Shown here one piece after another: positions 5,628 to 55,080 of a stretch of DNA of 59,308 nt. A program made the translations under genes and the position numbers. Position 1 is the first letter of the stretch. Each line of letters starts with the position of its first letter. The stretch is from the IMG/VR virus record IMGVR_UViG_3300030099_001381, positions 1 to 59,308 of that record; one strand, given 5' to 3'. Below the pieces are notes generated by a model that was not told the origin of the DNA, did no database searches, and saw only the letters and a program-made list of their open reading frames with translations. The DNA is from a virus.

Positions 5628-8600
5628 ATGCCTCAATATAGAAGGTTACCAAATGGACAAATACTAGAGCTTCCTGATAACTTAACTCAAGAACAAATAG
5701 AAATTGTTAATGAAAGATACTTTACAGCACCTCAAAGAGGTATAGAAAGTTTACCAACTGAAGAAGATCAAGACACTTCTATTTTAGGTCAAATAGTAGA
5801 AACAGGTAAAGCAGTACCAAGAGGTTTTACATCAAGTTTAATCTCTTCAGGAGAAGGTATTGTATCTTTATTTGACAAAGGCAATGACAGTGAGACTTTA
5901 AAAAAGATTAGAAATGCAAGAAAGTATATTAATGAAGAATCTTTCTTAGCCGCAGATGATGCTTATAAAGATAAGTTTTTAACTAAGTTTGGTGAAGGTC
6001 TTGGTAGTTTTGCCACATTCGCTACACCTGGCGTAGCTTTAAAAGTTGCAGGAGCAGCAGGTAAAACAATAGGAACAGGAAGTAAGATTGCCGCAACAGC
6101 AACAGGTTTTGGTCTTGCAGGTACAGCAGGTGTATCTCAACAAGCTGATCAGATGGAAACATCTAAAGCAAAAGGTATAGATATATCTACAGGTAAAGAA
6201 GTTGCTTCTGAATTAGCAGGTCTTGGAATTGGTTTTACTGAAATGCTTCCTATATTTGGTCTTCTTAGCAGAATTCCTGGTGGTCAGGTTGCTTCAGATG
6301 TAGCTGAAAAACATATGGGAAAACTTCTTAATAAAGTTAGAACTCAAGGTGGTAAAGCAGGAAAAGAAGTTGTTAAAGAAGCAGGAAAAAAAGGAGTAGC
6401 TAGTACAGTAAAAAGAGCAAGTAGAACAGCAGGAGAAGAAGCTATTCAAGAAACTGTTGCAGGGTTAGCTCAAGAATTAGCAGGTAAAGGAATATATGAT
6501 TCAAGTATACAAGTAGGTGGCAGTGCTTGGGATGACTTTACAGTAGGTGGTGCTGTTGGTTTTGCTTCTGATTTACTTATTAACGCAATAATTCCTGGCA
6601 AACAAAAGAACAAAGTATCAGCATATAACAACGAACAAAAACATGAAGAAGAAACAGAAAGGGTTAATAAGTCTAATAATCCAAATGCAACTGAAGTAGA
6701 ATACGATGTAGTAGAAGTTGGAGGAAAGTCAGTAAATGAACCTTTAGGTTATCAAGTTGTTGAAAAAAATAGTGGTGTAGTTGTTAGCCCTAGATATAAA
6801 AGACCTGATGAAGCAATTAATCAAAAAACAATATTAGACAATCAAAAGAATGAAGCTAGTTTACTTCTTACAACCGAAAGTAACGCAAACGATCAAGGTA
6901 GATCAGGAGATGCTCAAGGAAAAGTAGCTATTATTCAAGCTAATTCTGATAACGCTAATAAAGTATCAAGGTCAGAGGCTCAAACTATTATTGTTCCTCA
7001 AGGAGCAACCGAGAAAAAAAGTATTAATGATCAATGGCAAAGTCATATTAATAAAAAAATAAAAGGTAAATCTAAAAAAGCTCAAAATAAAAGACAAAAA
7101 TATATTTATGGAAATAGTTTCACACCTGCTGAATTACTTGCTGATAAAATTATAACTAAAAAACAATATAACGAAACTATGCAGAACAAAATAGATGCCA
7201 TGAATATTAAAAAACCTAGTGCTTCTACTAGCGATTTAAATAAAACTTTAAAATCTAAAAACATAGATGAAAAAATAGGTTCAGGCTCTACAGGATCAAC
7301 TAACTTTCATAGCTATTTAAAAGCTCTAACAGGTAAAGATAGATGGACTAAGTTAAATGATACTGAAAAAAAATATGTAAACGCTAGAATAAAACAACTT
7401 CCTAAAGCTAACAAAAAAAGAAAGATGATTGATACAACAGCTAGTAAATATTCTCTAGAGAATATTAATACTGTGATTGAAACTCAAGATAATAACTATA
7501 ATGAAACAGGTGAAAATCAAGCATACACAATTGAAGAGATACAAAAGATTGCCTCAACTCCTAATAAAATAAATAAAGATGCTACTAATCAAATGGTAGA
7601 AAGACTTGTAGATAGTGGAAGACTTACTAAAATTAATTCAGGTAAAGATAAAGGTAAGTATAAATTCTTTAAAGACAGAGGCAAAGCTAATGCTATAGAG
7701 AATGAAACACAATTCCAAAAACAAAACCTTATGGACAGTGAAGCCTTCTTTGAAACACAGGCAGAGTTTAAAGCTAGATTATCAACTAAAAGAGATAAAG
7801 ATGGTAATGCATTATTAACTCCTACTGAAATAAATCAAATTGCAAAAAATAATTCTCAAAAGAAAGTACAAGATTTAGGTTTGGGAAATATATTAGCAGA
7901 TGAAGAACTTCTTGATTTTGATGGTGTAGTACAAGATAAAGAAGGAAGATATCGAAAAACAACAATACAAAAATCTACTACAGATGGTCTCAGCAAAAGA
8001 GAAAGATTAAGTAGAGCAGGTCTATCAGCAGAAGAAGGCTCTACAGTTAGAAAAGAAAAAAATAAAGCGAGACTTAAATCTTTAATAGAAAAAGAATTAA
8101 AGAAAAAAGGTTTAGATAAATTAGGCATTAGTGCAGCTGTTGGTAAAATTTTTGCTAAAAAAGATAAAACAGGTTTTTTTGATGTAAGTGAAGGAGCAGG
8201 TGTGTATATTCCTTCTTTAGGTCAGGTTGTTTTAAACTATGATACTTTTCTTGATATACTACCACAGAATTTAGACTCATTAAGTGACAAACAAATCCTC
8301 TCAAGAAAATTAATTCTTAAAGATAAAGACAATCAAAAAACTTTTGACACTACAATTGGTGGAACTATTAATCACGAGAGTATTCATGCCTTAAAAGATT
8401 TAAATTTATTTACTCAAAAAGAATGGGTTGTTCTTAGCAATTATGTAAAAAATACAAAAGACCCTAGATATAAAGGTCAAACTATTGAGATTGAAAATAA
8501 CAAAGGTCGTAGATTGTCAATAGAAAATCCAACTTATCTTGAAGTACAGCTACAACAAAACAAAAATTTGGATGCTGATGGCGTGATTGAAGAGGCAATA

Positions 8601-11600
8601 GCAGAAGCATTTGGTGTATACACAAGAAACCCAAATAAATTTAGTGGTATGCCTAGAAATCTTTTCCAAAGAATATTAGACACCCTTACATCTTTCTTCA
8701 CTGCTTTTGATTCATCAGGTCTTACAGCTAATGAAATATTTAGTTCAATACAAGAAGGTGATCTTACTAGTTCTGAAAGATTATCTGATGCAACTATGGA
8801 TACAAGACCAACAGAACTTACTGAAGAAGAAGAAATAAAGTATCAAAGATTTACACCAGCAGAAAGACAATTTATAGAAAAATTGGTTACGCTAAATGAT
8901 TTAGTAGATGGTGCACCAAATGGTGCTGTAAGATTGGAATCTATGGATGCAATAATAGATGCAATTCAAGAACAAGCTGATAGACCTAGAGTTAGAATGA
9001 CTATACTTCCTCGTAATGTTAGGGAAATAGTCAGTAGTTATTCAGGTTATATAAGATTTAATACTGATAATTCTATAAGAAAAAGAAGACAAAACAGATT
9101 TGGTAATGAGGTTAAGTATCAAAGAATTAATGCCGAAACACAACCTTTGCTAGATGTAGGATTGCCATACAGTGAAATAGGATATCAATTAGATGAGTGG
9201 TTTAAAGCTAATGGATCAGAGGCAGAGAACGCATCAATAGTAAAAGTAAATAATCTATTAAAGAAAACACCTACAAGAGAAACATTAAAACTAGATAAGA
9301 CATATCTTAATGACGAGGGTAAAGAAAAGACAGCATTTAAAAATTTTGCAGAACTAAAACAATCAGTACAAGAAATTTTAGACGAAGGTAATTTTGATCC
9401 TAATTGGTATTTAAAGGTTGGGCAAGAAGCCGAAGCAATAGTAGGTAAAGATAACATGGTAGAGTTTTCTGTGTTATGGGCAATAACATCAGCTTCAACA
9501 GACCCTGAATTAAATTTTCAAAATACTTTAGAAGTAATGTCTTTGGCTAGAGGTATCGATCCCAAAACAGGAAACAAAAAACATAAGGATGTTTATTTAG
9601 ACCCTAAAGGTTTTAAAAGAAGAGTAAAAGCATTGAAGATGCCAACAGGTTCTAAATACACAATAGATGAAATAGGTCAGTTTTATGAAGATGCTAATTG
9701 GACAACTAAGACAGATACTTCAATTAAAACACCTATCTATGGATTAACAACATTGATGGTTAAAGATGGTGAGTATATGCCATTTATGGTAGCCGATAGA
9801 TGGATGTATAGAACGATGGGTTTTACAGATGCTATAACAAAAAGAGCACCTAAAAGATCAGAGATACATTATGCTCAATATATGGTTAAAAAATTAGGTA
9901 GTGAACAATATACATACAACAATGGTAAAAATACTAGAAGTCTAAGACCTGATGAAATTCAAGCAGCATTGTGGTTTTCAATAAGAAATAATTCTGGCAA
10001 CAAGCAGAAAACACCAGGAACTATACCTTCTATTTTAGAAAAATCTAAAAAAACTATAGATTCTATTTCTTTTGCAAAAGAAAAAAACTATTGGAGTGAT
10101 GTAGGTAGTTTTATTAATAAAGATAATCTTGATCTTAACCCTTACGAAAGAATTACTTATGTAGGTGCAGGTAAATTTGGAACTTTACAAATGCCTAGAA
10201 TGAAAAAGCAAGAACAAGAAAGAGCATCAAAATTATTTATAGAAGTTAATCCTGGTAATGAAAGAGGTTATGGAAAATTAACAGACGAAAGTGGTAACTC
10301 AGTTGAACTTACTTATGAACAAGTAGATAGATTAACTGAAGAAGTTATGGACTCAATAACTGATGAAAATGGCAAAATTAATTTACTTAAAAAATTAGGC
10401 ATTCCTCATCAGGTAACTAAAACTCATGGTGCATATGAAGGTGGTGTAAGCCCTAGTTATGTTATTGATATATTAGGTCAAAGAATTAATAACACTTTGC
10501 TTTCTGATATAGCTAAAACATTAGGTGATGCATTAATGCAAGATGCTGTTGTAACAACTCAGACTAATCCTGATGGAAAAAGACCTGCTTCTCTTCTGTC
10601 AAAAAAAGTTAATGAAGGGCAAGAGTCAGCTTTTACAAATGAAGAAATAACATTAATCAACGATGCTATAAATTCTGAAGGTGGCATATCTAATTACTAT
10701 AATCCTAATCAAAGATTTCCATTAGGATTTACAGCGAAATATATAAACGATTCAATATTAATAATTGATGAGCAGTATAATAAATTTGATGACGGAGATT
10801 TTTCTGAAGAAAGTGAAGATACTAGAGTTAGAAGATTTGAAGAATTTCAAAGATATATTCAAGAAAGATTGTCAAACATTGACGGATTACCTGAAATTGA
10901 ATATAGTACAGCTTATACCGATGGGAATTATATAAATGACTATACAGAAGCGACTTCAGGAATTAGGTTACAAACAGACACCGAAGGATCATCCGATATA
11001 CAAAACGCCGCAGTCAGTGACCTTTACATCCCAGCGTGGAGATCGTTCACCAACTTCATCCAAAACGAAGGACTAACCACAGAAAATAATGTAGCACCTT
11101 ACGAGAATGCAAAAACAACTGCATTAACTAAAGCTATCTCACCTAATGAAGTTAAGTATCAAAGAGCTAGAGCTATATTACAAGAGGCTAACGACAATTC
11201 TAAACCTAATACCACACCAAGATTTAATTTAAAAACTACCTCTCCATTAGCACAGACTACAGTTTTAGAGCATATAGAGAACGAAGATAAAGTAGGTATA
11301 AATCCTCTTGATGATGAAATTAAATTTCAAAGAACAAAGAAAGCAGAAACTATTCTTGGTGATGATTTAAATGTTAAAACTGAAAACATACCATTTGGTC
11401 AAAGGGCAATTGAACAGTTAAGTAGTTTTGGAAGAAGTTTTAGATTTATTGTACTAGATAAACTTGAGGCTATTGAAAGATCAAGTGCAAACTTTGCAGA
11501 CAAAGCAGGACAAACTTTACTAGCTAGTACGAGTGCTATTGGTGCTGCTAGATTAGGAGAAAGAGTTAAAGGTATCATTCAAGAAACATTAACTCAAGGT

Positions 11601-14075
11601 GGAGTGCCTTATTATGATTCAGCTTCTGTATTTGAAGGTGGTACTCAAAGAATAAATAAAACTTTTGTAGATAGAAATGGAAAAACACAGAGTGTTCATT
11701 TATTAAAAGCGATTGCTAATAATGTAGATGCTGAAGGTAATAGTTTAGAAAGTCAATTTCAAGAGTATGCAATATACAGAAGAATGAAAGCATTAACTAG
11801 CGATGAAAGAAAGAATAGTGAATTTGCTAAAAAATTAAAAGAAGAAAACAATGCTCTGTATAAAAAAATAGTAAATGATAAACAAAATCTTTTTGAACAA
11901 TTTGAACAAGACTATCCTCAAACAGTAGACCTATGGGAACAGTGGCAGTCATACAATGATTCTATACTAGAATACGCTAGAGATGCAGGTATTCTAAGTG
12001 ATGAATTAGCAGAGTATTATCGTCAGACAAGTGACTACATACCTTTTTATAAAGCACATGAAGATTTAAAATCAGGTAAATTTGATTTGTTCGGTGAAGA
12101 TGCTTTAGGCAATACAAGAAAAGGTGTTGAAAAAATAAATGATAAAGTTCTTACAAGAAAGTTAGATCAAAGTTTTGCACCAACAGAACTTGTTCCTGCT
12201 TACGAAGCTATGCTTGGTAATACATTATCTATTATGCAAGTTAGTGCTAAAAACATAACTAGACAAAGATTGGCTAGAGAACAAAGATTTTTAGGAACAG
12301 GTACAAATATTGAGTCTTCTCAGATATCAGATGTCGGACAAGAAAATGTATTCATGTACAAAGAAAATGGTCAAGAACAGTATATGCAAGTAAATGATAA
12401 GGCATTGGTTCAAGCATTAGAGTCATATAATGCTGATGGAACTATGTCAGCTTTACTTAATATAGTTGGATTTCCTTCTACTGTTTTAAGAGAATTTGTT
12501 ACAAGAGACCCTGGCTTTATGGCAGCTAACCTTCTTCGTGATACTATTTCTGCTTACGCTACATCAGGTGCTAACTTTATTCCTATCATTGACAGTGTAA
12601 AAGGATTAGCTACTGGTCTTGATAATATTAATAGATTTGGAATTGTTTCAGGTTATGACCTTTCAAGAGATGCCCTAAGTTTAAATAAATTTATTGATAA
12701 AGAATTAAAAAAGTTAGGTGTAGAACAAAATGGTGGTGTTCTTATGAAGCAATTCTTCACGCCAATGGGTATATGGGATAGATTAGGAGAGGCTACTACT
12801 CGTTCAGATGCGGCAACAAGACAAGCTGTTTACAAAAAAGTATTTGAAGCGACAGGAGATCAGTATGAAGCCGCATATCAAGCGTTAGAAGTTATAAACT
12901 TTAACAGAAGAGGAGCAAATCCTTATGTTAGAATAATAACAACTGCTATACCTTTCTTAAATGCTAGAATGCAAGGTCTTGATGTATTGTACAGAGCAGC
13001 ATCATCAGACTTGTACACAAGAAGAACAGGAAAACAATCAGAAAGAAGATACGGAGCAATGCAATCTCGTTTTGGAAAAGGAGATGACGAACTTAAAAAT
13101 CAAATGATAAGTACCTTCCTTGGAAGAATGGCATTGTTATCAGGTCTTACAGCAATATATTGGTTAATGGTAAGTGATGACGAAGATTATAAAAATTTAA
13201 CACCTGAACAAAAAGATAATAATTTCTTTATTCCAATTGCAGAAAATTATTCAATTAAAATTCCAATTGCTTTTGAAGTAGGTGTATTAACTAAAGTGAT
13301 ACCTGAAAGAACTCTTGAGTTAACATTTGGAGATGACAGTCTTAGAGATACAAAAGAAAGTGTATTTAGAAGTATAACTCAAACATTAAAGATTGATCCT
13401 TTAAACTTTCAAATAATAGCACCTTTGAGAGAAGCTATAGAAAATAAGAATAAATTTACAGGAAGACCTATTGAAAGTTATTTCATGGAAAAGTTAGAGC
13501 CTGGTGCTCGATCTATGGATTATACTAATGAACTTCTAAGAGTAATTGGAGAGGCTCTTAATATATCACCTATGAAACTAGAACACATTGCAAAAGGTTA
13601 TACAGGAACTATAGGAGGTTATATATTAGCCTTAACTGATAATGTAACTAGAACAATTACAGGAACTCCAAAAGTTCCATTTAGACCTTCTTCAGTGCCA
13701 TTTGGTAGATTTGTACAGGATGATTTAAGAAGAAGAGGTCTACAAAATCAATATTATGATCTACAACAAGAGGTAGATAAGGTTGTAGCAACAATCAATA
13801 GTCTTAAAAAGAAAGATAGATGGGATAAAGTAAAAGCATATAGGTATGCAAAGAAAGACATCATAAGTATTAAAAGTGAAATGAATCAAATACGAAAGTA
13901 TATGAAGAATTACAGAAACAAAAGAGATAGAATATCAAGAGATGAAACTCTTTCAAATGAAGTAAGAAAAAAATTACTTGACGAATTAGAATGGGAAAGA
14001 GATCAAAAATTAATGGTAATACCATTGCTAAGAGAAAGAGCAAACTTACCTTTTATTGATAAATTTAGTTTTTAA
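5628..14075 (+). CDS. Giant polyvalent virion protein with HExxH metallopeptidase-like motif
   Basis: This is a 2815-residue protein with a strong ribosome site (AGGAGG, seven bases). The N-terminus (LPNGQILELPDNLTQEQ) resembles phage internal-protein leaders, and residues about 125-215 are Gly/Ala-rich and possibly membrane-active. H916-E917-x2-H920 (HESIH) with Glu pairs at 988-993 (EEAIAE) looks like a zinc metallopeptidase. The linker motif E-[IV]-K-[YF]-Q-R occurs four times (Lys at 1071, 1163, 1843, 1899) and divides the chain into segments. The C-terminal third (VTRDPGFMAANLLRD, INFNRRGANP, IPFLNARMQG) resembles the LPD38-type domain of phage polyvalent proteins, from memory. It ends the late operon. 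Probably packaged and ejected; no RNA-polymerase motif was found. Confidence 0.75.
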   Translation: MPQYRRLPNGQILELPDNLTQEQIEIVNERYFTAPQRGIESLPTEEDQDTSILGQIVETGKAVPRGFTSSLISSGEGIVSLFDKGNDSETLKKIRNARKYINEESFLAADDAYKDKFLTKFGEGLGSFATFATPGVALKVAGAAGKTIGTGSKIAATATGFGLAGTAGVSQQADQMETSKAKGIDISTGKEVASELAGLGIGFTEMLPIFGLLSRIPGGQVASDVAEKHMGKLLNKVRTQGGKAGKEVVKEAGKKGVASTVKRASRTAGEEAIQETVAGLAQELAGKGIYDSSIQVGGSAWDDFTVGGAVGFASDLLINAIIPGKQKNKVSAYNNEQKHEEETERVNKSNNPNATEVEYDVVEVGGKSVNEPLGYQVVEKNSGVVVSPRYKRPDEAINQKTILDNQKNEASLLLTTESNANDQGRSGDAQGKVAIIQANSDNANKVSRSEAQTIIVPQGATEKKSINDQWQSHINKKIKGKSKKAQNKRQKYIYGNSFTPAELLADKIITKKQYNETMQNKIDAMNIKKPSASTSDLNKTLKSKNIDEKIGSGSTGSTNFHSYLKALTGKDRWTKLNDTEKKYVNARIKQLPKANKKRKMIDTTASKYSLENINTVIETQDNNYNETGENQAYTIEEIQKIASTPNKINKDATNQMVERLVDSGRLTKINSGKDKGKYKFFKDRGKANAIENETQFQKQNLMDSEAFFETQAEFKARLSTKRDKDGNALLTPTEINQIAKNNSQKKVQDLGLGNILADEELLDFDGVVQDKEGRYRKTTIQKSTTDGLSKRERLSRAGLSAEEGSTVRKEKNKARLKSLIEKELKKKGLDKLGISAAVGKIFAKKDKTGFFDVSEGAGVYIPSLGQVVLNYDTFLDILPQNLDSLSDKQILSRKLILKDKDNQKTFDTTIGGTINHESIHALKDLNLFTQKEWVVLSNYVKNTKDPRYKGQTIEIENNKGRRLSIENPTYLEVQLQQNKNLDADGVIEEAIAEAFGVYTRNPNKFSGMPRNLFQRILDTLTSFFTAFDSSGLTANEIFSSIQEGDLTSSERLSDATMDTRPTELTEEEEIKYQRFTPAERQFIEKLVTLNDLVDGAPNGAVRLESMDAIIDAIQEQADRPRVRMTILPRNVREIVSSYSGYIRFNTDNSIRKRRQNRFGNEVKYQRINAETQPLLDVGLPYSEIGYQLDEWFKANGSEAENASIVKVNNLLKKTPTRETLKLDKTYLNDEGKEKTAFKNFAELKQSVQEILDEGNFDPNWYLKVGQEAEAIVGKDNMVEFSVLWAITSASTDPELNFQNTLEVMSLARGIDPKTGNKKHKDVYLDPKGFKRRVKALKMPTGSKYTIDEIGQFYEDANWTTKTDTSIKTPIYGLTTLMVKDGEYMPFMVADRWMYRTMGFTDAITKRAPKRSEIHYAQYMVKKLGSEQYTYNNGKNTRSLRPDEIQAALWFSIRNNSGNKQKTPGTIPSILEKSKKTIDSISFAKEKNYWSDVGSFINKDNLDLNPYERITYVGAGKFGTLQMPRMKKQEQERASKLFIEVNPGNERGYGKLTDESGNSVELTYEQVDRLTEEVMDSITDENGKINLLKKLGIPHQVTKTHGAYEGGVSPSYVIDILGQRINNTLLSDIAKTLGDALMQDAVVTTQTNPDGKRPASLLSKKVNEGQESAFTNEEITLINDAINSEGGISNYYNPNQRFPLGFTAKYINDSILIIDEQYNKFDDGDFSEESEDTRVRRFEEFQRYIQERLSNIDGLPEIEYSTAYTDGNYINDYTEATSGIRLQTDTEGSSDIQNAAVSDLYIPAWRSFTNFIQNEGLTTENNVAPYENAKTTALTKAISPNEVKYQRARAILQEANDNSKPNTTPRFNLKTTSPLAQTTVLEHIENEDKVGINPLDDEIKFQRTKKAETILGDDLNVKTENIPFGQRAIEQLSSFGRSFRFIVLDKLEAIERSSANFADKAGQTLLASTSAIGAARLGERVKGIIQETLTQGGVPYYDSASVFEGGTQRINKTFVDRNGKTQSVHLLKAIANNVDAEGNSLESQFQEYAIYRRMKALTSDERKNSEFAKKLKEENNALYKKIVNDKQNLFEQFEQDYPQTVDLWEQWQSYNDSILEYARDAGILSDELAEYYRQTSDYIPFYKAHEDLKSGKFDLFGEDALGNTRKGVEKINDKVLTRKLDQSFAPTELVPAYEAMLGNTLSIMQVSAKNITRQRLAREQRFLGTGTNIESSQISDVGQENVFMYKENGQEQYMQVNDKALVQALESYNADGTMSALLNIVGFPSTVLREFVTRDPGFMAANLLRDTISAYATSGANFIPIIDSVKGLATGLDNINRFGIVSGYDLSRDALSLNKFIDKELKKLGVEQNGGVLMKQFFTPMGIWDRLGEATTRSDAATRQAVYKKVFEATGDQYEAAYQALEVINFNRRGANPYVRIITTAIPFLNARMQGLDVLYRAASSDLYTRRTGKQSERRYGAMQSRFGKGDDELKNQMISTFLGRMALLSGLTAIYWLMVSDDEDYKNLTPEQKDNNFFIPIAENYSIKIPIAFEVGVLTKVIPERTLELTFGDDSLRDTKESVFRSITQTLKIDPLNFQIIAPLREAIENKNKFTGRPIESYFMEKLEPGARSMDYTNELLRVIGEALNISPMKLEHIAKGYTGTIGGYILALTDNVTRTITGTPKVPFRPSSVPFGRFVQDDLRRRGLQNQYYDLQQEVDKVVATINSLKKKDRWDKVKAYRYAKKDIISIKSEMNQIRKYMKNYRNKRDRISRDETLSNEVRKKLLDELEWERDQKLMVIPLLRERANLPFIDKFSF
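7447..7466. repeat. CTAG-centred palindrome (20 bp, perfect), inside a gene
   Basis: AATATTCTCTAGAGAATATT is a perfect 20-bp palindrome within the giant virion protein gene. It belongs to a family of 11 sites sharing TTCYCTAGRGAA. Confidence 0.8.
10975..11090 (+). other. Patch of divergent codon usage within the giant virion gene
   Basis: Between about 10975 and 11090 the reading frame continues, but codons ending in C dominate (ACC, AAC, TTC, ATC, GAC), whereas flanking codons end in A or T. GC content by eye is clearly higher. This may be a recombined segment. Confidence 0.5.
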
Positions 14076-14091
14076 GTGGTTATAAGTTAAG

Positions 14092-14107
14092 TATTCCCTA
14101 GGGAATA
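14092..14107. repeat. CTAG-centred palindrome (16 bp) at end of late operon
   Basis: TATTCCCTAGGGAATA, a perfect palindrome followed by TTTAATATTT, lies 17 bases after the stop of the giant virion gene in the convergence zone. It is a member of the 11-site family. Confidence 0.85.
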
Positions 14108-14162
14108 TTTAATATTTATCTGGCTAGCTGACCAGGCTCTACTAAAAAATACTATAAATATA

Positions 14163-14246
14163 CTATAAACTTGAGATAATACTAAACAAAGCTGTAATAA
14201 TAAGCTGAACTACCATTGTTATTGATAAAAATTTAGTAAAATTCAT
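14163..14246 (-). CDS. 27-residue hydrophobic peptide
   Basis: The leftward frame MNFTKFLSITMVVQLIITAL plus seven residues starts at 14246 with a good ribosome site (TAGGAGATTAAT before ATG). It is nearly all one transmembrane segment. It sits in the convergence zone close to the late operon end. The upstream leftward frame ends inside its ribosome site, which suggests coupling. Function unknown; small membrane peptides can act in lysis control. Confidence 0.45.
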   Translation of the reverse strand: MNFTKFLSITMVVQLIITALFSIISSL

Positions 14247-14247
14247 A

Positions 14248-14394: not shown

Positions 14395-14530
14395 CCTCCA
14401 ACTTTTATTAACTAAGAATTAAATTCCCCATGATTTTTTCCTTATTTAAAATTAAACAAGACCTCTTATTGAGGTATTATCAAAGAAAAAACTTTAATTA
14501 GAAGATTGACATTACATTTTTTTTGAGTAT

Positions 14531-14569: not shown

Positions 14570-14586
14570 CTCACTCTTACTTAGCT

Positions 14587-18057: not shown

Positions 18058-18059
18058 AT

Positions 18060-46485: not shown

Positions 46486-46506
46486 CATAAATTAAATAGG
46501 TATTAA

Positions 46507-47205
46507 ATGGCAACTTCAGGAACTTCGACATTCAATTTAGATATAGGTGAGATTTGCGAAGAAGCATTTGAGAGAGCAGGATTAGAGATGCGTACAGGTT
46601 ACGATCTTAGAACTGCTAGACGATCTTTAAATTTACTTTGTTTGGAATGGCAAAATAGAGGAATTAACCTTTGGACAGTAAAAAAAGGTGAAATTGATAT
46701 TGTTGCAGGAACTGCTAAATATAATATAGAAACAGACGCTATAAGTTTAATAGAACAATTTATTAGAACAAACGAAGGTAACTCTACTTCTCAAACAGAT
46801 TTGCCTGTTACTAGAATTAGTAATTCTACTTACTCAGGAATACCGAACAAACTAACAACAGGAAAACCTATTCAAGTTTGGATTAACAGACAAAGAGAAA
46901 GACCTGAAGTTAATTTCTGGCCAGTACCTGATTCTGCTGAACCTTATAAATTTGTATATTATTATTTAAGAAGAATTGAAGATGTAGGTGATGTAGCAAG
47001 TTTAGATGCTGATGTTCCTGTTAGATTTCTTCCTGCATTAGTTGCAGGTTTAGCATTGCATATAGCAATTAAAAGACCTGAATCACAAGAAAGAGTATTA
47101 TTGTTAAAAGAATATTACGAGGAACAATTTAAATTAGCTTCTGAAGAAGATAGAGTTAAAGCAACTGTTCAGTTTGTTCCCTTCAGCTATAGTTATGGTC
47201 AGTAA
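46507..47205 (+). CDS. Head-to-tail adaptor-like protein
   Basis: This 232-residue protein has an N-terminal helical bundle (EICEEAFERAGLEMRTGYDL, RRSLNLLCLEWQNRGINLW), a central beta part and a C-terminal helix (RVLLLKEYYEEQFKLASEED). This organisation resembles P22 gp4-type adaptors and tail tubular proteins of podovirus-like phages. The next folded gene (47545) is similar in plan. Assignment by pattern and context. Confidence 0.65.
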   Translation: MATSGTSTFNLDIGEICEEAFERAGLEMRTGYDLRTARRSLNLLCLEWQNRGINLWTVKKGEIDIVAGTAKYNIETDAISLIEQFIRTNEGNSTSQTDLPVTRISNSTYSGIPNKLTTGKPIQVWINRQRERPEVNFWPVPDSAEPYKFVYYYLRRIEDVGDVASLDADVPVRFLPALVAGLALHIAIKRPESQERVLLLKEYYEEQFKLASEEDRVKATVQFVPFSYSYGQ

Positions 47206-47541
47206 ATGGTTAAGTATGCTACAGGAAAACACGCTTTTGGATTTTGTGACAGAACAGGTTTTCGTTATAAATTAAAAGATTTAAAAAGAGAATTTGTAGG
47301 AGGAAATCCTACAGGATTTCTAGTAGGTAAAGATGTTTGGGATAAAGATGCGGCTCAAAACTTTCAAGGAAAATATGTTTTTCAAGATGCACAAGCATTG
47401 CCTTATGCAAGACCTGATCAAAATTTAGATGAAAGTAGAAGACTTTTTGCTTTTAATCCTGTTGGAAATGGTAATGGAGGTGGTGGAGGAAATTTAATAA
47501 TAACTACCGATGTTGGTAGTGTTACAGTAACAACGAGCTAA
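47206..47541 (+). CDS. Small virion protein, unknown function
   Basis: 111 residues. The first part (AFGFCDRTGFRYKLKDLKRE) recalls a conserved motif in marine phage proteins of unknown function; the C-terminus is Gly/Val/Thr-rich. It directly abuts its upstream neighbour between two adaptor-like genes. Confidence 0.6.
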   Translation: MVKYATGKHAFGFCDRTGFRYKLKDLKREFVGGNPTGFLVGKDVWDKDAAQNFQGKYVFQDAQALPYARPDQNLDESRRLFAFNPVGNGNGGGGGNLIITTDVGSVTVTTS

Positions 47542-47544
47542 ATT

Positions 47545-48189
47545 ATGTCATATACTTATACTACATTAGTACAAGCAATTAAAGATTATGCTAATACAGA
47601 TGAAACTACATTTAATAATAATATAAATAATTTTATAACAAGTGCAGAAGATAGAATACTTAGAACTTGTCAATTACCTAATTTTAGAAAAAATGTAGAA
47701 GGTCAAATGTCAGCAGGTACTCAGTATCTTTCTACACCTTCTGATTTTTTATCACCTTTTTCTTTATCTATTACAGATTCAAATAAACAATCTTTTTTAT
47801 TATTAAAAGAAGTAGCTTTTTTAAGAGAAGCATATCCTAATGCCTCTACTCAAGGTGAACCTAAATACTATGCATTATTTGATGATGATACTTTTATGTT
47901 AGCTCCTACACCTACAAATGGTTACACAACTGAGTTACATTACTTTTACAATCCTCCGTCTATTACAGAAGACGCAAGTGGAGAAACATGGTTGGGAACA
48001 AATGCACCTGAATGCTTACTTTATGGTTCTTTAGTTCAGGCAAATTTATTTTTAAAAGGTCAGCCTGAGATGCAAGCAGAGTATGAAAAACAATATCAAG
48101 AAGCTCTTACTAGATTAAGAAACGAATCAGCAGGAAAAGATATGCAAGATAGTTATAGATTTGGTCAACCAAGGCAAGTAGTTCAATAA
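47545..48189 (+). CDS. Second adaptor-like or tail tubular protein
   Basis: This 214-residue protein has an N-terminal helical part (TTLVQAIKDYANTDETTFNN, FITSAEDRILRTCQLP), a beta-rich centre and a C-terminal helix (QAEYEKQYQEALTRLRNESA). The plan fits podovirus head-tail connectors. It is one of two neighbouring proteins of that plan and may form a second ring in the neck. Confidence 0.65.
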   Translation: MSYTYTTLVQAIKDYANTDETTFNNNINNFITSAEDRILRTCQLPNFRKNVEGQMSAGTQYLSTPSDFLSPFSLSITDSNKQSFLLLKEVAFLREAYPNASTQGEPKYYALFDDDTFMLAPTPTNGYTTELHYFYNPPSITEDASGETWLGTNAPECLLYGSLVQANLFLKGQPEMQAEYEKQYQEALTRLRNESAGKDMQDSYRFGQPRQVVQ

Positions 48190-48201
48190 AGGAAATATAT
48201 T

Positions 48202-48486
48202 ATGAATGACATAGGCTTATCCGTAGGTAGTGTAATTGTTTCAACAACTAAAAATTCAGGACACTCAGCAGAGTATTGGGCAGAACAAGCAACTAATAAA
48301 ATTATACAATATTCGGATAATATTGATCCTGTCTTGCAACAACAAGCAAAAGAGTTTAAAAATAATATTTACACTGTTGTATTAGATTATATGAAAAAAG
48401 CTGTTCAATCAGATAGAAGTACATTAATATATACATTAGAAAAAGAAGGTCACAAATGTGGCTCAGATATAATTAGGAGATTATAA
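48202..48486 (+). CDS. 94-residue helical protein, unknown function
   Basis: Mostly helical after residue 25 (AEYWAEQATNKIIQYSDNID, QQQAKEFKNNIYTVVLDYMK). Overlaps the next gene by one base. Lies between connector and tail genes. No family was recognised. Confidence 0.6.
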   Translation: MNDIGLSVGSVIVSTTKNSGHSAEYWAEQATNKIIQYSDNIDPVLQQQAKEFKNNIYTVVLDYMKKAVQSDRSTLIYTLEKEGHKCGSDIIRRL

Positions 48487-48920
48487 TGGCAATAACTCAA
48501 GCAATGACTACTTCTTTTAAGCGTCAGCTTTTAGAAGCAGGTCATAATTTTAAAACTTCTGGTGCAGGTGGTAATACATTTAAAATTGCTTTGTATACAA
48601 ATGCAGCAAGTTTAGATGCAGGAACAACTACATTTACTACAACTAACGAAGCTAGTGGAACTAATTATGATTCAGGTGGAAAAGTATTAACTAATGCAAC
48701 ACCTGCTACTTCAGGCACTACAGCTTTTTGTGATTTTAGTGATGTTACTTGGTCAGCTAGTTCTATTACTGCAAGAGGGGCACTTATTTACAATACAAAT
48801 CTTTCAAATGCAGCTGTTGCTGTTTTAGATTTTGGTGCTGATAAAACATCTACAAGTGGTGATTTTACAGTTCAGTTCCCAACTGCTGACGCAACAAATG
48901 CTATAATAAGGTTAGCATAA
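48486..48920 (+). CDS. Tail or decoration protein, common marine-phage type
   Basis: 144 residues. The start MAITQAMTTSFKRQLLEAGH, then FKIALYTNAASLDAGTT, matches a pattern I remember from many phages as a predicted structural protein. Beta-rich, with a C-terminal strand set (DFTVQFPTADATNAIIRLA). Likely part of tail or fibre attachment. Confidence 0.65.
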   Translation: MAITQAMTTSFKRQLLEAGHNFKTSGAGGNTFKIALYTNAASLDAGTTTFTTTNEASGTNYDSGGKVLTNATPATSGTTAFCDFSDVTWSASSITARGALIYNTNLSNAAVAVLDFGADKTSTSGDFTVQFPTADATNAIIRLA

Positions 48921-49601
48921 ATGCCTCATTTTAGTCTGAAAATATCAGATAGAGTAAAAGAAACTACTACTACAACAGGCACAGGCACTCTTACTCTTGC
49001 AGGTGCTGTTGATGGATTTCAGGCTTTTAGTGTTTTAGGTGATGGAGCAAGAACACAATACGCTATTGTAGATACAGGAAACAATACATTTGAAACAGGA
49101 ATAGGAACTTATACATCTAGTGGTACTACATTAAGTAGAGATTTTATTTTTGAATCTTCTAATTCAAACGCATTAGTTAATTTTGGTGCAGGTGAAAAAC
49201 AAGCATTTGTTACCATGCCAGCTGAAAGATCAGGTGTTTTATCTGCTGTTGATATATCCTCTGCTTCAGGAACTATTAATGGAGCACAAAATGTTATACC
49301 TGAAACAACAGGTGGATTTACTTTAGGTTCAGTATTTACAGCAAAAAATGGTACAACAATAGGTGCAAATGGCTCGGTAACTGTATTCGATAATTCAGTA
49401 TATTATATTGCAGATACACCATATGTTAACGAAGTTTCTCCTTTTTGGTCTGATGGTACAATCACAGAAAATACAGTTGCTTTAGGACAATTTAATGTGG
49501 TAGGCTCGGTATCAATTACTGGTTCAGGAAGCGTTGAAGTTATTGACGCAACTTCTCACGCCACACTAGATTTAGGTAACACAGTTACATTAAACGCATA
49601 G
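48921..49601 (+). CDS. Tail fibre-like protein
   Basis: 226-residue beta-rich protein (GTGTLTLAGAVDGFQAFSVL, FETGIGTYTSSGTTLSRDFI), with a second half rich in Gly, Ser, Thr (GSVSITGSGSVEVIDATSHA). Directly follows the previous gene. The N-terminal half is of the kind often seen in marine phage tail genes. Likely tail fibre or baseplate component. Confidence 0.65.
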   Translation: MPHFSLKISDRVKETTTTTGTGTLTLAGAVDGFQAFSVLGDGARTQYAIVDTGNNTFETGIGTYTSSGTTLSRDFIFESSNSNALVNFGAGEKQAFVTMPAERSGVLSAVDISSASGTINGAQNVIPETTGGFTLGSVFTAKNGTTIGANGSVTVFDNSVYYIADTPYVNEVSPFWSDGTITENTVALGQFNVVGSVSITGSGSVEVIDATSHATLDLGNTVTLNA

Positions 49602-49610
49602 GATAATAAA

Positions 49611-50558
49611 ATGTCATTATTAACAGTAGATCAAATACAATATAACGGAGGAACAGCTCTTACCTTACCAACAGCAACACCTTCAGCAGGTGACATGTTA
49701 CAAACAAATGGTTCAGGTGTTCTTTCATGGAGAGATAGACTTCAAAAAGTAACAAATGCAGCAGGAACAGTTACTTATACAGCTCCTGCTAATGTTCAAG
49801 ATGGAAAAGCATTAGGAACAGATGGAAGTGGAACATTAGGTTGGTATTCTGGTGGTGGTGATCCAATGCAAATTAACTCTCACATTGGATGGAGACTTGC
49901 TGATAAGGCAGATTTTAATGCTATTATTTCTGGTTATGATGGCACTGAGTCAAATGGTGTTAACACAGGAGTTGGTTCAATAGATTTAACATTACCTAGT
50001 GGTGTAAATGCTTCAGATGTTATTAGTTATTATATGGAAGGTTATAATCTTTCTGCACAAAACGGAAGTTGGTATTTAAATATTGAAGTTCTAAAATCAA
50101 ATGGTTCTAATGCTGCAAACAGTCAGATTGGTCATCTTAATCAAACTCTAAGTAATAATTGGGGTGCTAATTATAGCACACAAAATACTAATAAAATTAG
50201 AGCAAACGATGGTCCGACAGGTACATTAATTCAAAATGGTTCAGTTAACACTACTTATGGTGATTGGAATAGATTACAATCTCAAAGCAGTAGTATGTCA
50301 TTTAGAGACATGAATTTTCAATTACAACATTACAATGCAAAGCACGATTTTGATGGTGTTTTAGAAGTAAATGGATATTACACTGGTAATAGTAATTATA
50401 ATTTTGCATCTTCAATTGTTTATCAAGGAAGAGGTAACCAAGGTGTTTATACAATGAGTACAGATTATGCAAATGGTTTTAAAATAGAATTAGGGGGTGG
50501 TGGTAATTGGAAAAAAGGAACTATTTGTTTATATTACTGTCTTAGAGATGGTGCATAG
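49611..50558 (+). CDS. Tail fibre-like paralogue 1
   Basis: 315 residues. Starts MSLLTVDQIQYNGGTALTLP and has the repeated element TGTL/TPSAGDMLQTNGSGVLSW; the C-terminal domain of about 230 residues differs from its paralogues but keeps the plan (strand-rich, ending in a CLRDGA-like tail). First of four tandem genes of similar size. Confidence 0.7.
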   Translation: MSLLTVDQIQYNGGTALTLPTATPSAGDMLQTNGSGVLSWRDRLQKVTNAAGTVTYTAPANVQDGKALGTDGSGTLGWYSGGGDPMQINSHIGWRLADKADFNAIISGYDGTESNGVNTGVGSIDLTLPSGVNASDVISYYMEGYNLSAQNGSWYLNIEVLKSNGSNAANSQIGHLNQTLSNNWGANYSTQNTNKIRANDGPTGTLIQNGSVNTTYGDWNRLQSQSSSMSFRDMNFQLQHYNAKHDFDGVLEVNGYYTGNSNYNFASSIVYQGRGNQGVYTMSTDYANGFKIELGGGGNWKKGTICLYYCLRDGA

Positions 50559-50567
50559 GAGAAAAAC

Positions 50568-51524
50568 ATGAGTATTTTAGTAGTAAACAGTTTAAAAAAT
50601 TCAGCAGGTAGTTCTCCAACTTTAACCATACCAACTGCTGACGGCACTGACGGACAAATCTTACAATCATCAAATAATTCAGGTAATCTTGTTTTTGGAG
50701 GAGCTCAGATAGAAGCACAGAATGGAACTAACATAACTTTTCCTGCGAGTGCAGCTGATGATCGTACTTTTGTTACTGATGCAAATGGTAATTTAACAGC
50801 AACTGCGGCAGGAGGTAATCCAATGAATACTCCTGACAATGCACATCAAGGAGAAAGACTTCTTGATAGATATGTAATATCAGGTTCTGCTGGCAATGTT
50901 AATAACATTGCTTTAACTGTACCAACAGGTTACACAAATACTGATTTAAACACTATAAGAACTATGAAAGTTGTTATGAAAGGCGTACAACTTGGAGCTG
51001 GTGGTAATTTTAAACCTACTTTAAGACTTTTAGAACAAGACGGAACAGATTTTTTTAGTGGTAGTGGAAGCAACCCTAGTGCTACTTATGCTAGGTTTGG
51101 AGTAGAAGGTAAAAGTTATGGTAATCAACAAACTAATCAAAGCAATGTCACTCAACAAAAGTATTTAACTAGAGGAGAAGTATTCAGAAGCACTAGTGGA
51201 GCTAATAATCAAGATTATTTTAGTTCAACTACTATAAATACAAATGAAGCGTATAACGCTTCAGCTTGTTTTAATGGTATAGTTTATATTAATCCAACTA
51301 GTTCTCCTTCTATGATTTCAAAAATTGATTTTATTGATAATCAAAATCAAGGAAATTTTTATAATGAACAATCCTATCTTGGTAATTTAGCTGCTCAATT
51401 AGCTTCTGGTAATAATACAGGAAGACATCCAATGGGTGTTCAAATTAGCAGTAACACAGGTAATAATTTTTCTTCAGGTGTTGTTGAATTATACGGAGTA
51501 TTTAAAGATGGAGTAGTAAGCTAA
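50568..51524 (+). CDS. Tail fibre-like paralogue 2
   Basis: 318 residues. Starts MSILVVNSLKNSAGSSPTLT and contains IPTADGTDGQILQSSNNSGN, the shared N-terminal element. Its end (ELYGVFKDGVVS) is shared with paralogue 3 (LFARFKDGVVS). Probable receptor-binding fibre or short tail spike. Confidence 0.7.
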   Translation: MSILVVNSLKNSAGSSPTLTIPTADGTDGQILQSSNNSGNLVFGGAQIEAQNGTNITFPASAADDRTFVTDANGNLTATAAGGNPMNTPDNAHQGERLLDRYVISGSAGNVNNIALTVPTGYTNTDLNTIRTMKVVMKGVQLGAGGNFKPTLRLLEQDGTDFFSGSGSNPSATYARFGVEGKSYGNQQTNQSNVTQQKYLTRGEVFRSTSGANNQDYFSSTTINTNEAYNASACFNGIVYINPTSSPSMISKIDFIDNQNQGNFYNEQSYLGNLAAQLASGNNTGRHPMGVQISSNTGNNFSSGVVELYGVFKDGVVS

Positions 51525-52492
51525 TGGGAAAAATAGTTGTAAAAAAAATACAATCACAAGCAAGTAATACTGCTTTTACTATACCTTCTACTGATGGTAC
51601 TACAGGACAAGTTTTAAAAACAGATGGTTCTGCCACTTTAGATTGGACAGATAAATCATCAAAAATAAAAAGTGCTGGTATAGATTATACAATGCCTCCT
51701 TCTGATGGAACTACTGGTCAAATATTACAAACAAACGGAACTGGTGGAGTTTTAGAATTTGTAAGCCCTGCAACTAATCCATTGTCAACTCCTGATGGAA
51801 ATCATCAAGGTATAAGACTTTGCGATAAATATTTTTGTGGTTTAAATGATGCAGCTAATGTTAGTTCTGTTACTTTAACTGTTCCTTCTTCTTACACAAC
51901 TGAGCCTTCAAATGTTTTAACTTTAGAACTTTATTTAAGTGGAATGACACAATCAAATTCAGTCTCTTATGATGATCATTTTAAAATAACTATGCTAGGT
52001 CAAGACGGCTCTACTACTTCTAGAGCAACAGGTAGTCTAATTACTATGTATAATGGATATGGTAATAATTATAAAGATTGGAATACAGAAAGAAATTGGG
52101 GAACTGATCCAACAACAGGTAATGATGTTCATTTTAATGTTGGACATAATTATAATTCTTATAGCGATAGAACTAGATGGAGCACTACACAGGACACTTT
52201 TTCAAAGCATCCTGTTGGTCAATTAGTAGCAACTTGGTGGAATTCTGCTAGTTATCCTGTTTGGATGGCACAAGGATCAATGGGAAGGTCTGGTTTTGCA
52301 AGTAATGAATTACCAGGTCAAAGAATTTATAACAAAGCTGCTAACTATTCTTCAACAAATGGATTTCATAAAACAACTCCAAGCAATTTAAAACATTCTT
52401 TAGGAATGAAAATAGAATGGACATCTAGTTATACAATGCGAGATGGTGTTTTTATGTTGTTCGCTAGATTTAAAGATGGCGTAGTATCTTAG
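51524..52492 (+). CDS. Tail fibre-like paralogue 3
   Basis: 322 residues. Carries two copies of the shared element (STDGTTGQVLKTDGSATLDW and SDGTTGQILQTNGTGGVLEF) and ends FKDGVVS like paralogue 2. Overlaps it by one base. Middle part variable. Confidence 0.7.
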   Translation: MGKIVVKKIQSQASNTAFTIPSTDGTTGQVLKTDGSATLDWTDKSSKIKSAGIDYTMPPSDGTTGQILQTNGTGGVLEFVSPATNPLSTPDGNHQGIRLCDKYFCGLNDAANVSSVTLTVPSSYTTEPSNVLTLELYLSGMTQSNSVSYDDHFKITMLGQDGSTTSRATGSLITMYNGYGNNYKDWNTERNWGTDPTTGNDVHFNVGHNYNSYSDRTRWSTTQDTFSKHPVGQLVATWWNSASYPVWMAQGSMGRSGFASNELPGQRIYNKAANYSSTNGFHKTTPSNLKHSLGMKIEWTSSYTMRDGVFMLFARFKDGVVS

Positions 52493-52501
52493 GAGATTTA
52501 A

Positions 52502-53587
52502 ATGACATCTAAGATAGTTGTAAATAACATTGAATCATCTTCAGCAACAAATGATGTTAAAATTAAATCAAGAAATGTAACTTATACAATGCCAACTGCT
52601 GACGGCACTAATGGTCAGTTTATGAAAACAGATGGCAGTGGTAATTTAGGTTTTGCTACAGTTGATACATCCGTAGATCAAACTTCTTTAACAAATACAG
52701 TAACAACACCAGGAACAACTTATAAAGGTGAAAGATTAGTTAAAACTCTTGATTATAGTATTACTGCTCCACCAACTGCCGCACAAAAATTTGATTTTGT
52801 AGTTCCTACATCAATGTTTACAGATGATGGTGATACAACTTTAATGTATAGAATAAACAGGTTTCGTTTTAAATTTAGAAATCTTACATGGTCAACCACT
52901 GCTAATCATCCAGGAGCTTTCTCAGGTCAAATAAGATTATTTGCTTCTGTTGCACCTTTAAATGCATCTGGTAATCTTATTTTAAGCAGTAATAATAATT
53001 ATGTAACTCAAGATTCATGGCAATATACAAGCTCTGGTGGTGGTTCTTGGAATGATTCTAGTACAACCACAGGTTCTGGTAATGCTGGTACATATAATAG
53101 AAGTGGTGGAAATCCAGCTACTTTTCCAAGATCAGCAGTAGGTTATGCTTTTGTTAGAAGTAATCAAAATCTTTATGCTTACAATGGAAATGCAGGTTTT
53201 GCTAATCAAATTAGACAAGGACAAGATGCTGTAAATAGAGTTGATAATTCAAGAATGAATGGTTTTAGAGCAAATTTTAATGGGGAACTTGAAATTCAAA
53301 ATTACAAAAATCAATGGGATGTAACTTTTGAAGCTACTACTCAAGAAAATTCTAATTCTAATAACAGTCAACTTTATGTAACTAGATCAAGAACTGTTGC
53401 AACACAAAGTGGATCAACTTGGTATGAGACAAATACAGCACCTGCACAAGGTGTAAGGTTGTATTTTTTACCTCATGATTTTAGTAGTGCTAATAGTGGT
53501 AACGGCAGTTCAGGACAAATTGAAGCAAGTTATTGGGGTTTAGCTGGTGGAAGAATAGAATTCTATGCAGACATTAGTGATTTTTAA
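52502..53587 (+). CDS. Tail fibre-like paralogue 4
   Basis: 361 residues. The N-terminus MTSKIVVNNIESSSATNDVK followed by TADGTNGQFMKTDGSGNLGF matches the other three. The C-terminal domain is different and rich in Ser, Asn, Gly. Last of the tandem set. Confidence 0.7.
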   Translation: MTSKIVVNNIESSSATNDVKIKSRNVTYTMPTADGTNGQFMKTDGSGNLGFATVDTSVDQTSLTNTVTTPGTTYKGERLVKTLDYSITAPPTAAQKFDFVVPTSMFTDDGDTTLMYRINRFRFKFRNLTWSTTANHPGAFSGQIRLFASVAPLNASGNLILSSNNNYVTQDSWQYTSSGGGSWNDSSTTTGSGNAGTYNRSGGNPATFPRSAVGYAFVRSNQNLYAYNGNAGFANQIRQGQDAVNRVDNSRMNGFRANFNGELEIQNYKNQWDVTFEATTQENSNSNNSQLYVTRSRTVATQSGSTWYETNTAPAQGVRLYFLPHDFSSANSGNGSSGQIEASYWGLAGGRIEFYADISDF

Positions 53588-53635
53588 GTTGATTAGTTAG
53601 TAGAATTATTATAAAAATTTAATAGGAGTATTAAT

Positions 53636-54019
53636 ATGGCAAGACCAACACAAGATGATTTTGAAGTCTTTACAACAAGACCTAAAAAAGCAGTTCGTAA
53701 TTCTGAAGGCGTAAGAGTTGTTGAAGACTACACAGATGCAGAATGGGATGAAGCTAAAGCTAGTGCACAAGAAATAATAGATAATTATGATGTTGATGCA
53801 TTTGCAAAAATTAGAGAATACAGAAATAAATTATTAAATGATTCGGATTGGGGATTAGTCGCTGATACTACATTAACTGAATCTGAGTTAGTAGATTTAA
53901 AAGCATGGAGAACTAGTCTTAGAGATTTACCTGCATCTGAAGAAGACCCTGATGACATTGTTTTTCCTGAGTGTCCTATCGATTATTTAGGTATTGAAGT
54001 ATTCCAACCATTAGCATAA
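53636..54019 (+). CDS. Tail fibre assembly-like protein
   Basis: 127-residue acidic protein. The segment YRNKLLNDSDWGLVADTTLT followed by WRTSLRDLP is the pattern of phage tail assembly chaperone/XkdW-type domains (R-x2-L-L-x2-S-D-W ... W-R-x2-L-R-D-L-P). Just after the fibre genes, with AGGAG upstream. It likely helps fold or attach fibres. Confidence 0.7.
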   Translation: MARPTQDDFEVFTTRPKKAVRNSEGVRVVEDYTDAEWDEAKASAQEIIDNYDVDAFAKIREYRNKLLNDSDWGLVADTTLTESELVDLKAWRTSLRDLPASEEDPDDIVFPECPIDYLGIEVFQPLA

Positions 54020-54022
54020 AAA

Positions 54023-54238
54023 ATGACTGATGAAAAAAAAGAGGAATGGATTCCTCAACAAAAAGAATTAGAAGCACTTCATACTATGAGAATAGAACAT
54101 AACTATGATGTAAATTTTTCTGTTATTAGTGATAAAAAAGATTTTTTAGATGCTTTAATGGAAATAGATTCTTTAGAACTAGGCAATCAAATTAAACAAT
54201 TAATAGAATCTCAGGATAGACAATTCACAGTAGAATAG
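54023..54238 (+). CDS. 71-residue acidic protein, unknown function
   Basis: Helical and acidic (EWIPQQKELEALHTMRIEHN, KDFLDALMEIDSLELGNQIK). Starts three bases after the assembly-like gene. Possibly a second assembly factor; no family was recognised. Confidence 0.55.
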   Translation: MTDEKKEEWIPQQKELEALHTMRIEHNYDVNFSVISDKKDFLDALMEIDSLELGNQIKQLIESQDRQFTVE

Positions 54239-54272
54239 TGTAAGTTGTTTATATTAGGAGTAATATAAATTA

Positions 54273-55061
54273 ATGGCACTTGGTTTTACAACATATTCTG
54301 AAGCAGCATACGCACAATCTAGCGTAATTACTGATGTTGAGCAAGGACTCACAGGAGTTCAAGCTACAGGTGCTATCGGTAATGTAGGTGTTACATCTCC
54401 TGAATTAGTTATACCTACAGGTGTTGAAGCTACAGGTGCTATAGGACAAGCTCTTGGTAGAGCAGGATTTGTTTTTGCTAAACCTCGTGGCAATGAAACA
54501 TTTACTATAACAGTGCAAAGCACTGATAGTGGGAATAAATACTATGTAAATGATTTTAGACAATTAATGCCTACTGCATTACACAAAGGTTTTACTTACA
54601 TATTTGATCAATCAGATTCAAGCAACAATAATCATCCATTAAGATTTTCTACAACACCTAATGGTTCTCATGCAGGAGGATCAGAATATACAGATGGTGT
54701 AACTGTAGTAGGAACGCCAGGTCAGGCAGGAGCTTATACACAAATTGTTGTAGCTGATAATGCTCCTTCTCAACTTTATACTTATTGTATAAACCATAGT
54801 GGCATGGGCTTCTCTGTTAGCGTAGAAGCAAATGTTGAAATTAAATCTACAAGTGTAGTTGGCAACGCAACAGCAATACCTCAAATGATTGTAGTACCTA
54901 CAGGTGTTCAAGCTACAGGTGCTATTGGTAATGTAAGTATAAAGTTAAGTGCAATTGCATCTGTTACAGGAGTTTCTGCTTCAGTATCTACATCAAATGT
55001 GTTAGTTTGGAGTGAAATTGATACAGTTCAAGACCCAAATTGGGTGGAGATAGCAGCATAA
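54273..55061 (+). CDS. Tail protein with cupredoxin-like domain and GAIG repeats
   Basis: 262 residues. A central beta domain (about 70-190) has His121 (HPLRFS) and the cluster Cys172-x2-His175-x2-Met178 (YCINHSGMG), the ligand set and spacing of amicyanin-type copper sites. It is flanked by repeats of TGVQATGAIGNV (two before, one after). Related domains are common in marine phage structural proteins, from memory. Copper binding is inference; it may be a fold relic. Confidence 0.65.
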   Translation: MALGFTTYSEAAYAQSSVITDVEQGLTGVQATGAIGNVGVTSPELVIPTGVEATGAIGQALGRAGFVFAKPRGNETFTITVQSTDSGNKYYVNDFRQLMPTALHKGFTYIFDQSDSSNNNHPLRFSTTPNGSHAGGSEYTDGVTVVGTPGQAGAYTQIVVADNAPSQLYTYCINHSGMGFSVSVEANVEIKSTSVVGNATAIPQMIVVPTGVQATGAIGNVSIKLSAIASVTGVSASVSTSNVLVWSEIDTVQDPNWVEIAA

Positions 55062-55080
55062 ATATTCCCTAGAGAATATT
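55061..55080. repeat. CTAG-centred near-palindrome between tail genes
   Basis: AATATTCCCTAGAGAATATT (one asymmetric position), starting at the last base of the upstream stop codon. Confidence 0.85.

Follow-up and report, generated by a model that had tools for sequence, protein, structure and literature searches.

Dispersed near-palindromic sites in a pelagiphage-like virus genome and their lineage-specific words

Palindromic sites of the window

The window analysed here is the whole stretch of 59,308 bp of the virus record IMGVR_UViG_3300030099_001381 (33.5% G+C), whose termini overlap by 99 bases with one mismatch. Its large terminase is closest to those of phage DSL-LC04, phage 023Pt_psg01 and the pelagiphages HTVC027P and HTVC023P (52-58% identity), and a SAR11 bacterium is the host of two of the nearest cultured relatives found. 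Scattered over the window are eleven copies of a near-palindromic, CTAG-centred site. At least five lineage-specific words of this site exist among phages with 95-99% identical capsids.

A preceding inspection of the letters (the sequence-only reading) had listed eleven cores and held them to be too frequent for chance. Both statements were borne out. The 12-mer TTCYCTAGRGAA occurs in exact form at 7451, 14094, 18606, 20987, 22416, 24405, 27060, 30897, 39595, 43686 and 55065, while the starts first reported were those of longer arms, 1-8 bp before these 12-mers. Markov models of order 1-4 predict 0.02-0.03 copies, and TTCYCTAGRGAA is the most repeated near-palindromic 12-mer family of the window, the next families reaching three copies. 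When up to two mismatches were allowed, the excess was modest (20 matches compared with a shuffle mean of 12.1; maximum of 100 shuffles, 19), indicating that the signal resides in the exact family.

Alignment of the window sites gave a 24-bp near-palindrome with the consensus TAAATATTCYCTAGRGAATATTTA. In every one of the 22 half-sites positions 6-9 read ATTC and positions 11-12 read CT, and position 10 is occupied by C in 13 and by T in nine of them. The 6-bp centre reads TCTAGG in four sites, its reverse complement CCTAGA in three, CCTAGG in three and TCTAGA in one. It is thus asymmetric in seven of the eleven sites, where it points both ways relative to the genes, as judged by eye. Inverted arms around a 6-bp centre resemble, in form only, the dif-like core sites of tyrosine recombinases, whose spacer measures 6-8 bp. 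The 22-mer AARTATTCYCTAGRGAATATTT is present in five sites. Two particulars of the sequence-only reading, an arm of 28 bp at 39587-39614 (with one unmatched pair) and 35 identical bases common to 22404-22438 and 24393-24427, were confirmed. In four genomes, 9 of the 40 palindromes supply with their own TAA the stop codon of the adjoining gene (two sites in the window, four in G020, two in G027, one in G022). Related records and loci are designated here by G and L numbers; G022 is an 18.5-kb close relative of the window.

Table 1. Positions of the palindromic sites, the candidate binders and a second repeat (window coordinates unless a relative is named)
Feature	Position	Strand	Remarks
Palindromic site	7445-7468		Inside 2815-aa gene 5628-14075(+)
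Palindromic site	14088-14111		Just past 2815-aa gene, before minus-strand genes; convergent junction; similar places G020 26371, G027 39147
Palindromic site	18600-18623		Inside Sak-like annealing protein gene 18383-19129(-); counterpart at the same point of this gene in G020 (30799)
Palindromic site	20981-21004		Inside primase-helicase gene 20631-22412(+); common to G020, G045, G048, G027
Palindromic site	22410-22433		TAA is primase-helicase stop codon; convergent junction; site after same gene in G020, G027, G023, G046
Palindromic site	24399-24422		Between early minus-strand genes
Palindromic site	27054-27077		Inside start of DUF2201 gene 25727-27091(-); same place in G022 and G009 (L052, L015)
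Palindromic site	30891-30914		Divergent region upstream of small terminase gene; same place in G022, G027, G023, G046
Palindromic site	39589-39612		Just past gene 39346-39585(+)
Palindromic site	43680-43703		Just past capsid gene, then terminator-like hairpin 43710-43733
Palindromic site	55059-55082		TAA is stop codon of gene 54273-55061(+); G020 7033
108-aa protein	19891-20217	-	Leading candidate binder (tentative); no Pfam or PHROG match
IS110 C-terminal-like protein	15365-16204	-	Second candidate, less favoured; weak Pfam match, phrog_4285
ATCGTCTAGGTA repeat	22920, 24349, 25667, 29320, 29744	-	At most one mismatch
ATCGTCTAGGTA repeat	G022 9729, 10121, 10524, 14284, 15355		At most one mismatch

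By mechanical calls of open reading frames (ORFs), seven sites lie between genes and four inside them (7445, 18600, 20981 and 27054). The sequence-only reading had likewise counted seven intergenic copies, yet the copy in the divergent control region, which it had added to these, is one of the seven. Site 43680 was taken as intergenic in this tally, though it is covered by a small antisense ORF (43670-43831, minus strand).

The copies inside genes show signs of selection on the DNA word. All four use the codon CTA (9.7% of Leu), and two each use GGG (3.6% of Gly) and TCC (1.3% of Ser); their remaining codons are not rare (e.g., TCT 31%, GAG 18%). The dyad is also kept through amino acid changes: in the primase copy of G048 a Gly codon has become an Arg codon with the half-sites preserved, and the site in the annealing-protein gene is common to the window and G020 despite differing encoded residues.

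Words and positions in related phages

A scan of viral contigs with the 16-mer TATTCYCTAGRGAATA yielded 32 stretches, mostly with a single copy, and the 12-mer was matched in 19 of 41 records searched whole, with a maximum of six copies in G022. We then clustered 20-bp near-palindromes de novo, without supplying a motif. Families of at least four members emerged in five of 16 genomes (window 9, G020 6, G022 6, G027 6, G023 4) and in none of the other eleven; HTVC023P, HTVC027P and 023Pt entered this clustering, as well as the capsid and early-ORF profile comparisons, with bases 1-50000 only. Among records added later, G046 has a palindrome family with the word GAATAATACTAGTATTATTC, G047 shares the word of G023, and G045 and G048 share that of G020. 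At the stricter setting no cluster was obtained for the partial clade records G028 and G021 (at least four members) or the clade loci L153 and L169 (at least three). At a looser setting the array-negative genome G038 also yielded clusters of AT-rich near-palindromes, the largest of seven, so that the contrast between carriers and non-carriers rests on the stricter setting. Scanning with the consensus gave 11 sites in the window, 11 in G020 (one of them weak and in a gene), 13 in G027, six in G022 and three in G028; none was detected in G023 and G021, where the word differs or was not found. Ten simulated windows gave no match in nine cases and one match in the tenth.

The capsid identity to the window quoted above applies to the clade records holding the gene. 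In six sister genomes it is 72-78%, and none of them yielded a palindrome cluster. The centre of the site is conserved within a lineage and changes between lineages, and dyads of about 20-24 bp are found in the window as well as in the other lineages.

Several positions carry a site in more than one lineage. Behind the primase-helicase gene, sites are located at 22410 in the window, G020 34447, G027 48093, G023 59049 and G046 25798 (about 150 bp past the end), and these five lineages have five different words there. Upstream of the small terminase gene they are located at 30891 in the window, G022 9280, G027 56846, G023 5347 and G046 17850, with none found at this place in G020. The site within the primase gene is common to the window, G020, G045, G048 and G027; G023, G047 and G046, whose words differ, have other codons in its place. 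After the capsid gene, a site or a variant centre (such as CCTTAAGG or CCTTAGGG) was found in ten of 16 aligned relatives and was absent in six, among the matches listed. Small indels add or remove sites, L053 and L051 having none after the capsid gene.

To place the sites relative to genes, we counted 50 of them in six genomes, the sites of G047, G045, G048 and G028 being left out. G020 19481 (score 32 of 38, in a gene) as well as G023 13504, G047 401 and G046 16982 (each with a score of 16 of 20) had been dropped before counting. Outside ORFs lay 33 of the 50 sites (random mean 3.8, maximum of 1000 draws 10), six of them in the window since the antisense ORF covers 43680. The centre fell within 30 bp past a gene 3' end at 22 sites (random 2.3, maximum 7), a result which upheld the earlier impression that sites follow directly upon stop codons. 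In five genomes, 34 of 44 sites were situated in the early region, where 12.0 were expected. All these counts are approximate, as they depend on mechanical ORFs of at least 45 aa and on early borders set by hand, and the sites of related genomes are not independent.

Reading of the array and its alternatives

The array is real and in all likelihood functional. We consider it probable that the palindromes are dispersed DNA operators of about 24 bp, used by a phage-encoded dimeric regulator which silences or road-blocks early transcription. We infer three things here, namely the binding by a protein dimer, the phage origin of this protein and its roadblocking or silencing effect. A phage-encoded dimeric protein would bind the dispersed sites; sitting where early genes and operons end, and in the divergent region ahead of the small terminase gene, it would block or insulate transcription, and the early region would be shut off or silenced as long as the protein is present. 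An operator read by a dimer is favoured because of the conserved centre, the missing covariation of the halves and the shared positions that keep the dyad while the word changes. Of the functions suggested by the sequence-only reading, the operator or dimer-binding site is therefore the one we prefer.

Our leading candidate for the binder, put forward tentatively, is the 108-aa protein. It is one of five early proteins which profile comparison of early ORFs detected in G020, G027, G023 and G046, and not in any of nine array-negative genomes; the other four are a 97-aa protein (32259-32552), an HNH protein (33418-33666), the IS110-like protein and a 45-aa protein (14851-14988). A more sensitive search recovered the 108-aa family in nine of 36 records, comprising eight of the clade and a weak match in the array-negative G038, and in none of four partial clade records. 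The structural model (pLDDT 75) consists of four strands and one long helix; weak rows resembling the I-DmoI fold (Z up to 4.7) were within the noise level of the tool. Between the window and G023 the 108-aa protein shows 35% identity, compared with 54% for the exonuclease and 63% for the primase. Such divergence would suit a changing specificity, though other small proteins differ as much, and protein divergence across lineages singles out no one binder.

The IS110-like protein is less favoured. Its family phrog_4285 was matched in four of 21 records, which are the four longest array carriers given. Tblastn located the protein at 37 viral loci, including three on contigs of more than 180 kb. 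Of 30 loci outside the clade, 28 encode the protein without a palindrome cluster and two (L176, L183) have small unrelated palindrome clusters; many of these outside loci are richer in G+C and extend only up to about 21 kb. Candidate families were searched with alignments, since single-protein queries gave one locus each. The IS110-like gene of G020 is broken into two frames (27480-28153; L120 7480-8153), by mutation or sequencing error.

Several observations weigh against the operator reading. In only four of the 50 sites does the centre fall in the 30 bp preceding a gene 5' end (random 2.3, maximum 9), and few of the sites therefore resemble classical promoter operators. No binder was identified, which agrees with the sequence-only reading that no gene was an obvious one, and no phage repressor was recognised. 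A distant homologue of the 108-aa protein (E 4.6e-4) in G038, which is without the array, weakens the apparent exclusivity of this protein to array carriers, and its model had no fold match at E<=0.001 in PDB or BFVD. No match to PF00589 (integrase/recombinase) was found in 11 records, a model which MrpR-like proteins may escape, serine integrases and parABS not having been searched as families; in the same number of records no HTH_3 exceeded the cut-off, the L5 repressor itself not having been searched. A pattern search of bacterial and archaeal genomes for the large terminase, limited by its peptide patterns, matched 54 stretches and no relative. Finally, four of the eleven sites fold as single-stranded RNA at z <= -1.9 (14088, 22410, 39589 and 7445; lowest -3.43).

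This folding is the best point in favour of RNA hairpins, by which the palindromes would terminate transcription in both directions or mark transcript ends for processing. The location of sites at gene 3' ends, two of them at convergent junctions (14088 and 22410), is in line with such a role, as are terminator-like hairpins within 60 bp of seven of the 50 sites, compared with nine of 329 control 3' ends; in the window, hairpins of this type stand beside three sites, at 22446, 30919 and 43710. However, the remaining seven sites had z values above -1.9, and no palindrome was among the hits resembling intrinsic terminators (G-C stem and T run) at 14000-31500 (16 hits) and 38000-57000 (19 hits), two regions that hold ten of the eleven sites, 7445 being outside. 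It is the presumptive loop that is conserved, with differences by lineage, and four window copies reside in genes, which a constitutive terminator would cut. Complementarity of left and right halves did not exceed that of shuffled halves in any of four genomes; the G027 halves were even less complementary (125 of 156 pairs compared with a mean of 133.6). Perfectly symmetric sites are thus not preferred; a protein reading one strong and one weaker half would fit this. A search of Rfam at gathering scores gave no match. We regard RNA hairpins as an unlikely explanation, and the processing element named in the sequence-only reading is disfavoured by the same terminator and covariation results.

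Another role for a bound phage protein would be to partition or compact the genome, the palindromes serving as centromere-like segregation or genome-organisation sites. Dispersed symmetric sites, some of them in genes and with no evident strand preference, are compatible with this idea. On the other side, the scanned proteins, which did not include all those of the late region, contained no recognisable partition gene, although no search was aimed at partition families, and a partition role does not call for the marked concentration of sites at 3' ends and in the early region. We therefore give segregation a low probability.

It is very unlikely that the palindromes are sites of a site-specific recombination that exchanges gene modules, with a 6-bp spacer between inverted arms. 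The arms and the frequently asymmetric centre would permit it, and the gene order of the window is not that of L052/G022. In six of six comparisons, however, synteny breakpoints within 60 bp of sites were not in excess over random gene ends; moreover, a PF00589 recombinase was not found in 11 records, and the arms, too, vary between lineages. Equally little can be said for operators of a borrowed host regulator, to which the lack of a recognised phage repressor might point. The 22-mer, searched as one word in strict form, occurred only once each in one Coleofasciculus and two Erysipelotrichaceae records among 84,980 bacterial and archaeal genomes, unrelated taxa in which it reveals no host regulon with this word; the host of the phage was not identified. 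Besides, host regulators of five specificities would be required to account for the five words of a single phage clade. That the palindromes are a mobile or amplified repeat of the REP or MITE type, with no function where they stand, is hardly credible, since the 35 bases shared by two copies and the indels mentioned above are opposed by shared in-gene positions with the lineage's own word and rare codons, and by word differences that are coherent by lineage.

Comparable arrangements are known from other phages. The phage phiC31 possesses conserved inverted repeats bound by its repressor, and N15 dispersed centromere repeats bound by a phage protein; both are likened to our sites by description only. 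If the operator reading is correct, the array would work most like a stoperator or SPBRE array. Stoperators of Cluster A mycobacteriophages (L5 and relatives) occur as numerous scattered sites within promoter regions and short spaces between genes, with one motif per genome and a motif distance that correlates with repressor distance (PMC6550527, PMC9283540). Many dispersed, often intergenic copies of one motif are common to both systems. In contrast to the 24-bp dyads without evident orientation found here, stoperators are 13 bp long, asymmetric and oriented with transcription; moreover, the Cluster A phages have a monomeric HTH immunity repressor with two DNA-binding domains, which stops transcription at the sites and confers immunity, and an integrase or parABS for prophage inheritance, whereas the 11 records searched here gave no PF00589 match and no HTH_3 above the cut-off. 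As a test for an asymmetric 13-bp site was negative, we did not assign the array to the stoperator family. The SPBRE of SPbeta is likewise one repeated element dispersed in various intergenic regions, and it was known long before its binder, the master repressor MrpR (PMC10516654). It differs by its 15-bp motif, by the tyrosine-recombinase fold of MrpR and by the integrated prophage, neither such a protein nor a prophage having been seen here. In Cluster K mycobacteriophages, the ESAS are imperfect 17-bp inverted repeats whose consensus varies between genomes (PMC3203893), and they thus share with our sites the dispersed inverted repeats and a word differing by genome. However, the ESAS are placed at translation starts, upstream of the 13-bp SAS and with a variable spacer, while the sites of the window and its relatives lie at 3' ends and have a fixed centre. 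The main text of PMC9599517 contains no mention of palindromes or inverted repeats.

The most unusual feature of the array is that the operator word switches among otherwise close phages without a recognised lysogeny gene, as if the specificity of a phage regulator had changed several times. Operator words that switch while structural proteins stay nearly identical are the pattern of superinfection-immunity groups in temperate phages. Pelagiphage-like viruses without recognisable integrase or repressor might possess a concealed system of immunity or silencing, in which a small phage repressor of a new kind, possibly the 108-aa family, reads the dispersed operators, and immunity-like selection might have driven the at least five incompatible words; we think of this as a possibility on the doubtful side. 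If a phage protein reads the words, the array would make early-gene control, and perhaps dormancy or immunity, accessible to direct tests in these marine viruses, and it may reveal a new class of DNA-binding protein.

Other repeats and gene blocks

Another repeat, the asymmetric ATCGTCTAGGTA, after which ATTTTGCC often follows, is located upstream of early genes, some copies just after a small hairpin. Five copies each were counted in the window and G022, two in G020, one each in G045 and G048 and none in eight other genomes. It is perhaps a promoter or leader element. The gene-poor stretch after the late operon contains a further repeat cluster (14586-14852), in which several repeats are spaced by 34 bp (GATTCATTTG...GATGTTC).

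A block of small genes at 37829-39346, one of them matching a PHROG called ferredoxin, is found upstream of the large terminase gene in L051 and L053; L052/G022 lacks it at the place it occupies in the window. It is perhaps a mobile cassette. The region 25727-29310 (minus strand) encodes a DUF2201 metallopeptidase/VWA-like protein with an AAA ATPase nearby and is conserved also in the six sister genomes.

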